NCBI RefSeq assembly: GCF_009937995.1
Contig: NZ_AP021881.1
Span: forward strand, 2,604,001-2,668,000
Origin: Sulfuriferula nivalis
Lineage (GTDB): Bacteria; Pseudomonadota; Gammaproteobacteria; Burkholderiales; Sulfuriferulaceae
Length of the DNA: 64,000 nt
Direction of reading: 5' to 3'
The notes under the pieces are model-generated. The model had not been told where the DNA came from and did not search any database. It saw nothing but the letters and a program-made list of their open reading frames with translations. This document shows positions 14,913 to 17,738 of the stretch, piece after piece (the stretch's first letter is position 1; each line of letters begins with the position of its first letter). A program made the position numbers and the translations under genes.

Positions 14913-16080
14913 CCAGACCTCGCGCCAAATCATTCTGAATATCACGTAGCGATTCCAGACCAACTGCAACGCGCAACAACCCGTCATTTATCCCCGCATT
15001 CGCCCGCTGCTCTGGCGTCATACGGCTGTGTGTCGTCGTCGTAGGATGGGTAATAGTGGTTTTCGCGTCACCCAGATTAGCAGTAATCGAAATCATTTTG
15101 GTTGCATCAATTACTTGCCAGGCAGCTGGTTGCCCACCTTTAACCTCAAACGCAACAATGCCGCCACCTGTACGCTGCTGGCGCATCGCCAATTCATGCT
15201 GTGGGTGAGAAGCCAAGCCAGGGTAATACACCCGTGCCACATTCGGATGCGCTTCCAGCCAGGTAGCCAAAGCTAACGCCGATGCAGAATGTGCATCCAT
15301 GCGGAGTTTCAGCGTTTCCAGGCCTTTGAGAAACACCCAAGCATTGAACGCGCTCATAGTCGGCCCTGCGGTACGTAAAAAACCGTACACACCTTCAAGC
15401 AACTGATGACTACCCAAGACTGCACCACCTAGTACACGACCTTGCCCATCCAGATATTTGGTCGCAGAATGCACGACTATATCCGCGCCCAATTTTAATG
15501 GCTGTTGCAATGCTGGCGAACAAAAGCAATTATCCACCGCCAATACCACGCCAGACTGTTTCGCCAATGCCGACAATGCACGAATATCACTGACTTCCGT
15601 CAGTGGGTTAGAAGGAGATTCCACAAAAAACAGCTTGGTGTTGGGGCGTAACGCCGCTTGCCATTCACTGATATCAGTCGGCGAAACATAAGTTGTTTCC
15701 ACACCAAAGCGCCCGATAATATTACTGAACAGTTGCACAGTAGAACCAAAAATGGAGCGCGATGCAATGATGTGATCGCCCGCTTTGAGCAAGCCCATTA
15801 CCGTAGCCAGTATCGCCGCCATTCCAGAAGCTGTCGCCACACAACGCTCAGCGCCTTCCAATGCGGCCAGCCGCTGTTCAAACATGGTGACGGTGGGATT
15901 GGTAAAACGCGCATAAATATTCCCGGGCTGCTCACCCTTAAACCGAGCTTGAGCTTCGGCCGCATTGTTGAACACGAAACTGGAAGTCAAATACAGTGCT
16001 TCACTATGCTCACCAAACTGGCTACGCGTAATGCCGGCCCGTACTGCCAGAGTTTCTATATCGTAATCTTCGTTTTGCAT
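14902..16080 (-). CDS. metZ: O-succinylhomoserine sulfhydrylase
   Basis: PLP-dependent Cys/Met-metabolism enzyme converting O-succinylhomoserine plus sulfide to homocysteine, the direct sulfhydrylation route of methionine synthesis. It is 392 residues long. YARFTNPT, ATASGMAAI, the FFVESPSNPL stretch with VDNCFCSPALQQPL, and the PLP lysine Lys208 in VHSATKYLDGQGR identify the family. The GGA-VLGSHQLL context favours MetZ over cystathionine gamma-synthase. AGGAG at 16087-16092 precedes the ATG. Its leader carries a SAM-II-type riboswitch with an intrinsic terminator just before the ribosome site, so expression should fall when SAM is high. Confidence 0.93.
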   Translation of the reverse strand: MQNEDYDIETLAVRAGITRSQFGEHSEALYLTSSFVFNNAAEAQARFKGEQPGNIYARFTNPTVTMFEQRLAALEGAERCVATASGMAAILATVMGLLKAGDHIIASRSIFGSTVQLFSNIIGRFGVETTYVSPTDISEWQAALRPNTKLFFVESPSNPLTEVSDIRALSALAKQSGVVLAVDNCFCSPALQQPLKLGADIVVHSATKYLDGQGRVLGGAVLGSHQLLEGVYGFLRTAGPTMSAFNAWVFLKGLETLKLRMDAHSASALALATWLEAHPNVARVYYPGLASHPQHELAMRQQRTGGGIVAFEVKGGQPAAWQVIDATKMISITANLGDAKTTITHPTTTTHSRMTPEQRANAGINDGLLRVAVGLESLRDIQNDLARGLDAL

Positions 16081-16092
16081 AAACCACTCCTA

Positions 16093-16131
16093 ATAAAAAA
16101 CCCGTTTTGCTGACTACAGCTAAAACGGGTT
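16093..16131 (-). terminator. Intrinsic terminator in the metZ leader (riboswitch expression platform)
   Basis: On the minus strand, AACCCGTTTT, a bulged A, GCTG, a TAGT loop, CAGC and AAAACGGGTT form a 14-bp stem with one bulge, followed by TTTTTTATT. The hairpin ends one base before the AGGAG ribosome site of metZ. Its 5' arm is also able to pair with the upstream segment 16137-16145, making it switchable. It could also terminate readthrough from purF. Confidence 0.88.
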
Positions 16132-16132
16132 A

Positions 16133-16182
16133 GGTTTTTTAGCTGAATTTATTAAGCGCCCGCAAGTTAGAAATCGGCGCAT
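16133..16182 (-). promoter_or_regulatory. SAM-II-type (SAM_alpha-like) riboswitch aptamer upstream of metZ
   Basis: Read on the minus strand: P1 5' arm GCGCC (16180-16176), then GATTT, a short loop containing CTTGC, P1 3' arm GGCGC (16160-16156), then TTAATAAAT and the tail CAGCTAAAAAACC. The order and sequence of the conserved blocks (GAUUU after P1, UUGC in the loop, UNAUAAAU after P1 and GCUAAAAA at the end) match what I remember of the SAM-II class, a small H-type pseudoknot that binds S-adenosylmethionine. Position directly before a methionine gene, and a terminator that competes with the GCUAAAAA tail, support this. The loop-tail pairing P2 is short here (UUG with CAG) and needs a covariance check. 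Confidence 0.8.
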
Positions 16183-16187
16183 GATTC

Positions 16188-16216
16188 ATCTTAAACACTC
16201 GCTGGTTTAACGTCAA
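16188..16216 (-). promoter_or_regulatory. Putative metZ promoter
   Basis: On the minus strand TTGACG (16216-16211), a 17-base spacer and TAAGAT (16193-16188) form a good sigma-70 promoter. Transcription would begin near 16181, at the first stem of the SAM-II-like aptamer. The promoter starts only a few bases after the purF stop codon, so metZ is probably its own transcription unit. Confidence 0.65.
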
Positions 16217-16220
16217 CCAC

Positions 16221-17738
16221 TTACGTCCCACGCGCCAGATTCAAGTCCAGCTGCAATGAGGACGACTTCACTTTTATATCCGAACCACAGCGCATGGATT
16301 CGATAATGTCCAGATATTCCGGAGTAATATCACCTGTCACATAATTACCGTTAAAACACGATGTATCAAAATGCACTAGCGCAGGATTAATCTCACGCAC
16401 AGCTTCAATCAGCGCATCTATATCCTGATAAACCAGCGCATCTGCACCGATTTCGCGAGCGATTTGCTCATCAGTACGACCTGTAGCCAGCAATTCCTGA
16501 CGTGTAGGCATGTCGATACCATAGACGTTAGGGAAGCGCACAGGAGGCGCAGCAGAAGCAAAGAATACCTGACGTGCACCCGCATCACGCGCCATTTGTA
16601 CGATTTCACGACTGGTGGTACCACGCACGATAGAATCATCGACCAGCAGCACATTTTTATCTTTAAATTCCATGCCAATCGCATTGAGCTTCTGGCGTAC
16701 GGACTTCTTACGCATGGCCTGTCCTGGCATGATAAAAGTACGGCCAATATAGCGGTTCTTGATAAAGCCTTCGCGATAAGACAAGCCCAGTGCATTAGCC
16801 AGCTGCAATGCGCTGGGACGGCTGGTGTCAGGTATCGGGATAACCACGTCGATATGCAGGTGCGCCCATTGCTGACGGATTTTTTCAGCCAGCTGTTCGC
16901 CCATACGCAGACGGGTTTCATATACGGAAACGCCATCTATCACTGAATCAGGACGCGCTAAATAAACGTATTCAAAAATACAGGGGAAATACTGTGGATT
17001 ATCCGCACATTGATGGCTGTGCATTTTTCCAGTTTCATCAATATAAATTGCTTCACCTGGCGCGACATCACGCAGCACTTTAAAGTCCAGCGAATCTATC
17101 GCCACACTTTCCGATGCGAGCATGTACTCAACACCGTCTGCAGACTGACGGCTACCGATAATCAAGGGACGAATACCGTATGGATCACGAAATGCCAATA
17201 AACCATGACCTGCTATCATTGCCACCACGGCATAAGCGCCACGGCAACGTCTATGTACACCACTCACTGCCTTGAAAATACGATCCACACTCAACTGCTG
17301 AGTACTGCCGACTTCTACCAGCTCATGTGCCAACACATTCAATAAAACTTCTGAGTCCGAACTGGTATTGACGTGGCGCAAATCCAGACGGAATAAGTCT
17401 TCTTTGAGCTGGTCAGTATTGGTCAGATTACCATTATGTGCCAACACGATGCCATAGGGTGAGTTCACATAGAAAGGCTGCGCTTCGGCGGTAGAGGCTG
17501 CATTACCTGCAGTTGGGTAGCGCACATGCCCGATACCAGAATTCCCCAGCAGATTACGCATGTCACGCGTACGGAATACGTCACGCACCAAGCCATTGGC
17601 TTTATGCATATGAAACACGTTACCCTCAGCTGTCACTATCCCCGCTGCATCTTGCCCACGATGTTGCAAAACCAATAAACCATCATAGAGTAACTGATTG
17701 ACGGGTGAGTGAGAGACGATGCCGATTATGCCGCACAT
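16221..17738 (-). CDS. purF: Amidophosphoribosyltransferase
   Basis: First committed enzyme of purine synthesis: PRPP + glutamine gives phosphoribosylamine. Cys2 is the N-terminal glutaminase nucleophile ([12 protein letters not shown], exposed after Met removal). The Ntn domain continues through GHVRYPTAG and NGNLTN. The C-terminal phosphoribosyltransferase domain has the PRPP loop in [13 protein letters not shown]. The length of 505 residues is typical. It is the last gene of the trpFBA - accD - folC - dedD - cvpA - purF series and is preceded by an AGGGA ribosome site and cvpA nine bases upstream. Confidence 0.97.

Follow-up and report, generated by a model that had tools for sequence, protein, structure and literature searches.

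A SAM-II-family leader without helix P2a before metZ of Sulfuriferula nivalis, a candidate SAM-dependent transcriptional OFF switch

In the sulfur-oxidising bacterium Sulfuriferula nivalis, a short leader is read on the minus strand in the gap that separates purF (ending at 16221) from metZ (starting at 16080), within the stretch of 64,000 nucleotides that we analysed as a whole (the window). The features of the locus are collected in Table 1. MetZ, which an earlier note on this DNA had put forward as a logical target for a SAM riboswitch, was identified there with a score well above its NCBIfam cut-off.

Table 1. Genes and leader features at the metZ locus (positions of the window)
Feature	Position	Strand	Remarks
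metZ, O-succinylhomoserine sulfhydrylase, 392 aa	14902..16080	-	NCBIfam 721.8 bits, cut-off 522
AGGAG, likely metZ ribosome site	16087..16091	-	by eye; metZ ATG at 16080
Intrinsic terminator and T run	16095..16131	-	stem 16131-16099, 14 pairs, bulged A 16121, -18.5 kcal/mol
Antiterminator, 9 pairs	16117..16145	-	CAGCUAAAA 16145-16137 with UUUUAGCUG 16125-16117
GCUAAA, P2b 3' strand (taken as G42-A47) and antiterminator core	16138..16143	-	own mapping
L3 UUAAUAAAUUCA, A-rich loop, contains AAUAAAU	16144..16155	-	
P1 3' strand GGCGC	16156..16160	-	5 pairs with GCGCC
UUGC, P2b 5' strand, taken as U20-C23	16162..16165	-	own mapping, numbering of PMC3764141
Linker CUAAC, in place of the usual GAAACAGC or GATACAGC of the genus	16166..16170	-	P2a impossible with CUAAC
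L1 GAUUU, taken as G8-U12 of the SAM-II crystal numbering	16171..16175	-	own mapping, numbering of PMC3764141
P1 5' strand GCGCC	16176..16180	-	pairs with 16160-16156
Promoter-like site TTGACG-17-TAAGAT, directly after the purF stop codon	16188..16216	-	-35 16216-16211, -10 16193-16188
purF, amidophosphoribosyltransferase, upstream neighbour	16221..17738	-	NCBIfam 532.8 bits, cut-off 350

The earlier note had placed a promoter, the aptamer blocks, a terminator and the metZ ribosome site between 16216 and 16081 of the minus strand, and when the sequence was re-read and recomputed each of them was found at its claimed position. The promoter-like site matches the consensus at 9 of 12 positions; shuffled sequence yields 0.6 such sites per region, and taken alone the promoter is weak evidence. 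By eye, TTGAC followed by A or G also stands upstream of P1 in five of six other leaders of the genus, and is absent in L002/G121. P1 starts 7 bases past the -10 box, so the RNA probably begins approximately at P1. A simple terminator scan returned 0 sites at the metZ leader, and our guess is that it misses the terminator because of the bulged A.

In order to assign the leader to a class, we compared it with Rfam models and with a model of our own. When Rfam was applied at its cut-offs, a tRNA was the sole match in the 64-kb window. At permissive thresholds RF00521 (SAM_alpha), one of the models that had been suggested for this leader, gave 15.1 bits against a cut-off of 36, yet only 4 of 61 relatives reach 36 bits, so that this cut-off is a poor test in the lineage. 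The same model matched 22 of the 61 relatives at E <= 0.001 and none of 14 control genomes, and it gave 28-33 bits for four of the five canonical sister metZ leaders (the fifth, G157, was not listed); by comparison of coordinates, 16 of the 26 places listed precede metZ. Rfam as the sole test was dropped, since its cut-off misses clear relatives. Matches to Trp_leader, isrC, sR38 and GP20-b at the leader were rejected, all being far under their own cut-offs; that of RF00513 (Trp_leader), 20.5 bits of 41, is above the SAM_alpha score and arises through the terminator hairpin.

Our model R1 was based on an alignment (A1) of 81 relatives, without the window and two leaders like it, which takes in two canonical Sulfuriferula leaders (L040, L045). 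On the 64-kb window R1 gave the metZ leader 49.6 bits with an E-value of 1.9e-12, and the second-best place 11 bits with an E-value of 0.21. The aptamer is far beyond chance, in keeping with the SAM-II type claimed before, and this match, together with the canonical metZ leaders of five sister species, speaks for common descent. All 13 pocket residues described as completely conserved in SAM-II (U10-12, U20, U21, G22, C23, G42, C43, U44 and A45-47; PMC3764141) are present at 16175-16138 in our own mapping. The five pairs of P1 close the GAUUU...UUGC loop, and UUGC is able to pair with GCUAA as P2b; that P2b is invariant in all 81 relatives follows from their selection, as its sequence was part of the search words. 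P2a, by contrast with these elements, reaches 1 pair by a loose count and +1.8 kcal/mol, and the leader is therefore filed as a SAM-II variant and not as a standard member. SAM-V, also suggested as a comparison, was not among the 5 Rfam matches up to E 10, and the layout is not that of the SAM-V platform, as the terminator stem sits between the 3' end of the aptamer and the Shine-Dalgarno site.

Covariation in A1, which the earlier note had proposed as a check, turned up 0 pairs in which both partners had changed; it is uninformative there, because many of the sequences came from a pattern that fixes most of P1, UUGC and GCUAAA. In a set of 247 elements whose selection required the first four P1 pairs, and a few of which look spurious, the fifth pair was GC in 227, AT in 12, TA in 3, CG in 3 and unpaired in 2. 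Among 43 metZ loci read, the motif lies at most 330 bases upstream in 19 (the element of L015 is farther up, and the upstream region of L044 was left out).

A betaproteobacterial copy with a transcriptional switch had been expected to be rare or new. Such leaders turned out to be widespread and already in print (PMC2258182, PMC3521395, PMC4239095). Of 300 genomes of the order, 114 matched a degenerate pattern for them, and among the rows listed the reversed pattern matched none. With R1 and a threshold of E <= 0.001, matches were obtained in 111 of the 150 genomes searched in the order and in 179 of the 369 searched in the class; the E-values of R1 are rough, and the weak matches may include false ones. 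In the tested relatives the RF00521 cut-off misses most of the family, with 4 of 61 over it compared with 40 of 61 matched by R1 (our own count). Downstream genes were named by NCBIfam in six loci only: metZ in L125 (Methylophilaceae), L110 (Alkalilimnicola ehrlichii) and L159 (Candidatus Desulfobacillus denitrificans), and metX in L116 (Oligella ureolytica), L091 (Oryzomicrobium) and L132 (Brackiella oedipodis).

Several other forms were seen among these leaders. L345 (G032) carries two SAM-II matches, at 117-173 and 285-343, and has the look of a tandem aptamer with starts about 100-170 bases apart, as do G077:C7, G120:C15, G029:C22 and G046:C2; unusually many R1 matches occur in two genomes of the class, G553 (10) and G665 (6). 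By eye, loop L3 seems to hold an extra hairpin in L338, L339, L340 and the second element of L341, which may be why SAM_alpha misses some leaders (L339 is the RF02424 match over the cut-off). Six loci from Oligella and other Alcaligenaceae (L074, L116, L147, L170, L179, L180) have a short linker, GCUAAAAAGG or similar, and a close ATG, and look translational. Bacteroidales loci L075, L077, L079, L104, L113, L137, L142 and L182, with GACTGC-like linkers and AAAATAATGCTAAAA, resemble a different SAM-II-like subgroup, in which L077 and L142 have almost no P2a.

Within the genus, the element stands before metZ in 8 of 18 genomes with E below 1e-9, and the look at related metZ leaders that had been recommended found GAUUU kept in them. 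Five canonical leaders (G161, G152, G150, G157, G159) score 71-73 bits with R1, and three variants (G160, G121 and G000, which is the window) score 48-50 bits; the leader of Sulfuriferula sp. WB-IL-01 (JABFSE010000017.1, L154) is the same as that of G121:C20. The canonical leaders read GAUUU-GAAACAGC or GAUACAGC-UUGC ... GCUAAA-GCG, and the variants GAUUU-CUAAC or CCAAC-UUGC ... GCUAAA-AAA, ACC or AAC, with a linker 3 bases shorter. In SAM-II, P2a is formed by the stretch before UUGC and the stretch behind GCUAAA, and for the two pairs that adjoin P2b, standard pairing is seen in 68 and 63 of the 81 sequences of A1. The earlier note had found P2 weak by eye and allowed for a variant; in fact P2a, the part of P2 above UUGC/GCUAA, is absent, and we regard its loss, read from the aligned leaders, as the main new point.

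We then compared P2a across 142 elements. At least two P2a pairs were counted in 137, and fewer in the three variants (0, 0 and 1) and in L214 and L216 (1 each), by a loose count whose observed mean of 2.82 compares with 2.28 after shuffling the letters of the tails and 2.62 after redealing the tails (0 of 500 redeals reaching the observed value). Measured as duplex energy, P2a is weakest of all 142 in the three variants, at +2.9, +2.9 and +1.8 kcal/mol, followed by -0.3, with a median of -4.3. Other values above 0 kcal/mol belong to L077 and L142 (Paludibacteraceae; +0.8, +0.4) and to L343 (G049; +0.4), all three outside the 142-element set, and six Alcaligenaceae loci are at -0.9 kcal/mol. 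A five-base linker is compatible with P2a: both copies of G136 form 3 bp by eye, ACC/GGU and GAC/GUC. A scan for short linkers in the named genomes returned 111 stretches, of which 68 were set aside because the linker repeats GATTT and the copy farther upstream gave the better P1, leaving 43 that include several of chance or GATTT-repeat type. A replacement for P2a farther downstream, linker AAC with GUU of the terminator arm, is possible by eye in all three variants and was discarded, as it would block the terminator.

The variant has been kept through strong divergence. Between the three carriers, metZ differs at 120 of 184, 116 of 193 and 113 of 183 four-fold degenerate sites (60-65%), compared with 2, 3 and 3 differences, counted by eye, in the 43-base core from P1 to GCUAAA; the changes fall on two positions of L3, a single base of the linker and one P1 pair, which turns into U-G. 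GAUUU, UUGC and AAUAAAU, which lie outside the antiterminator, are identical in the three. Unrooted trees separate the three carriers from five other leaders in metZ (support 88) and from four other leaders in purF (support 91), but cysS and trpB+cysS place G160 with canonical species (support 91 and 82), trpB alone being without support. As the trees are unrooted, a single origin of the P2a-less variant is likely rather than settled.

The tail of the aptamer had been described as complementary over 9 bases to the 5' arm of the terminator, so that two mutually exclusive folds would result. Recomputation gave 9 of 9 pairs, and both folds were obtained by energy computation. When the nascent chain was folded, the 9-bp antiterminator appeared at a length of 66 nt, with pair probabilities of 0.52 to 1.0 and a total energy of -16.7 kcal/mol. 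Once the chain is complete the terminator is the more stable fold, with -28.1 kcal/mol versus -17.4 when the antiterminator is enforced. As the full chain always prefers the terminator, the choice would have to fall during transcription, and the ON state would rest on kinetics.

All eight leaders of the genus are able to form both structures although their sequences differ, the antiterminator being CAGCUAAAA/UUUUAGCUG in the window, GCUAAAGCGG/CCGUUUUGGC in G159 and G161, and AAGC-GGAAC/GUUCC-A-GCUU in G150 and G157. Its energy is -8.1 (G000), -9.7 (G121) and -5.9 kcal/mol (G160) in the variants, compared with -16.4 (G161), -13.6 (G159), -11.7 (G152), -13.4 (G157) and -12.2 kcal/mol (G150) in the canonical leaders, and the terminators range from -15.1 to -19.1 kcal/mol in all eight. 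This comparison of three with five does not amount to eight independent cases, because the weakness of the variants is probably one evolutionary event. Beyond the genus, a terminator-like hairpin with a T run follows in 134 of 142 leaders (23 of 142 after one shuffle each), and 36 of the 134 terminator arms hold a complement of GCUAAA, compared with 1 after shuffling. In these 134 leaders the tail pairs with its own terminator arm at -10.3 kcal/mol versus -9.2 with foreign arms. Foreign arms that equal or surpass the leader's own make up 37% in the median leader and 2%, 3% and 12% in the three variants; for shuffled arms the average share is 25%. In these models the antiterminator is convincing in Sulfuriferula and appears as a tendency elsewhere, where it is not strongly specific.

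Taken together, these findings suggest that metZ is preceded by a functional SAM OFF switch of the SAM-II transcriptional kind in a form that lacks P2a, a candidate reading to which we assign a probability of about 0.72. With plentiful SAM the tail would be held in the P1/P2b pseudoknot, the terminator would form and transcription would end after about 90 nt. Without SAM, CAGCUAAAA would pair with UUUUAGCUG once the latter is transcribed, the terminator stem would be delayed and metZ would be read. In the variant, the shorter linker and the change of the tail from GCG to AAA, ACC or AAC would do away with P2a while P1, P2b and the complete pocket stay in place. The altered tail also makes the antiterminator shorter, so that the two competing structures would have weakened together. 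That the switch has been retuned in this way we propose tentatively.

Other explanations have to be weighed against this one. That there is no riboswitch, only an ordinary intrinsic terminator or leader in which aptamer-like words occur by chance, would agree with a SAM_alpha match under its cut-off and a higher score for RF00513, but it is hardly credible in view of the R1 E-value, of the same leader recurring before metZ in related species across strong divergence, and of a pattern common in the order whose reversed control is found in none of the rows listed. Nearly as improbable is a change of ligand, by which the reduced pseudoknot would sense SAH or another adenosyl compound instead of SAM: both sides of the pseudoknot are altered and have been kept so in three species, but U11 and U21, said to recognise the sulfonium (PMC3764141), are unchanged along with the rest of the pocket, and the gene downstream is still metZ. 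A decayed riboswitch deserves more attention, improbable as we judge it to be. Loss of P2a would then have ended useful SAM binding and left a constitutive or folding-rate-controlled attenuator. The three variants do have the weakest P2a of the 142, and in the Agrobacterium tumefaciens metA RNA two base changes that disrupt P2 abolished the SAM response, which compensating changes restored (PMC1273637, whose text assigns the mutant pairs to P2 without separating P2a from P2b). A decayed aptamer should drift, however, and decay is disfavoured because the pocket words outside the antiterminator stay constant while 60-65% of the four-fold sites of metZ differ.

The remaining alternative overlaps our preferred reading and departs from it on the retuning: P2a would be dispensable, its loss neutral, and the leader an ordinary SAM-II that switches like those of the sister species. 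SAM-V and the crystallised metX SAM-II, as compared in PMC6061858, have only 2 bp of P2a, and short or weak P2a helices occur elsewhere, in G136, the Alcaligenaceae loci, Paludibacteraceae and G049. The P2 stem was nevertheless necessary in A. tumefaciens according to PMC1273637, and all but 5 of the 142 elements keep at least two P2a pairs by the loose count. We hold this account to be unlikely, although it is the most credible of those set against the SAM OFF switch described above.

By its sequence, then, the element before metZ is a SAM-II leader of a common and already described kind, in a form without P2a. The variant can be seen as a natural experiment on what the pseudoknot needs, as three species keep the pocket and lose the helix above it and five sisters keep the helix; variant and sister leaders before the same metZ are matched pairs for affinity and termination. 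If the P2a-less aptamer is functional, one tail strand common to aptamer and antiterminator would tune both together. The full proposal, a natural SAM-II aptamer cut to P1 and P2b that works without P2a and has had its antiterminator weakened in step, is possible but still doubtful.

Known systems place the leader in a wider context. The discovery paper on SAM-II describes a promoter before P1, terminators, and a few cases outside the alphaproteobacteria (PMC1273637, Corbino et al. 2005). The metZ leader resembles the metA element described there (RF00521, SAM_alpha) in P1, in the GAUUU/UUGC/GCUAAA pocket, in the A-rich L3, in the promoter at P1, in the terminator behind the aptamer and in the methionine gene downstream; it differs in lacking P2a, in its 5-base linker and in its low Rfam score. 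SAM-V, whose P2a is compared with that of SAM-II in PMC6061858 (2018), has the same kind of pocket and a short P2a, but acts on translation, whereas here a terminator follows. In S. meliloti, the SAM-II leader of metZ has a predicted terminator and gives the sRNA RZ (PMC9373788, Scheuer et al. 2022); it shares the metZ target, a predicted SAM-dependent terminator and a short terminated RNA; it is alphaproteobacterial, and the likeness is one of description rather than of compared sequences. A search limited to the open-licence literature gave no mention of Sulfuriferula together with a riboswitch.

Leaders such as this one were in print as SAM-II by 2007 (PMC2258182). The metXZ element of Leyn et al. 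2014 (PMC4239095), reported before metX or metZ of beta-proteobacteria, among them before metZ in three Methylophilales, Nitrosospira multiformis and Thiobacillus denitrificans, has the same two-helix pseudoknot, terminator and proposed antiterminator. That paper treats it as new and apart from SAM_alpha, which it gives for two alphaproteobacterial groups, and its sections on the element do not mention a P2a-less form; among the matches listed in the open-licence literature, it was the only paper to name metXZ. By gene, lineage and topology rather than by comparison of alignments, the metXZ element is probably SAM-II. Bp2_Cand287_SIPHT, now RF02424, was described in 2012 as lying before methionine genes in the majority of genomes, with a suggested cis-acting role (PMC3521395); the legend of Figure 6A there has purF, metZ and metX. 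The family differs in being modelled as an sRNA, and its matches here lie on the strand opposite to the SAM-II leaders. Among 150 genomes of the order, 28 contain RF02424 (Bp2_287) matches, 29 in total, of which a single one exceeds the cut-off of the family. For 26 of the 29, R1 matches the other strand at an overlapping position. Of the remaining three, L339 (G119) and L340 (G030) also have R1 opposite, and L321 (G141) shows the motif there by the pattern only. In a scan of four loci, RF02424 and SAM_alpha themselves matched the two strands of one place in L318, L319 and L320, but not in L317. Since its matches overlap R1 or SAM_alpha on the other strand, RF02424 probably models the reverse complement of SAM-II leaders. 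SAM-II, RF02424 and probably the metXZ element thus appear to be one family, frequent in the sampled order and class.
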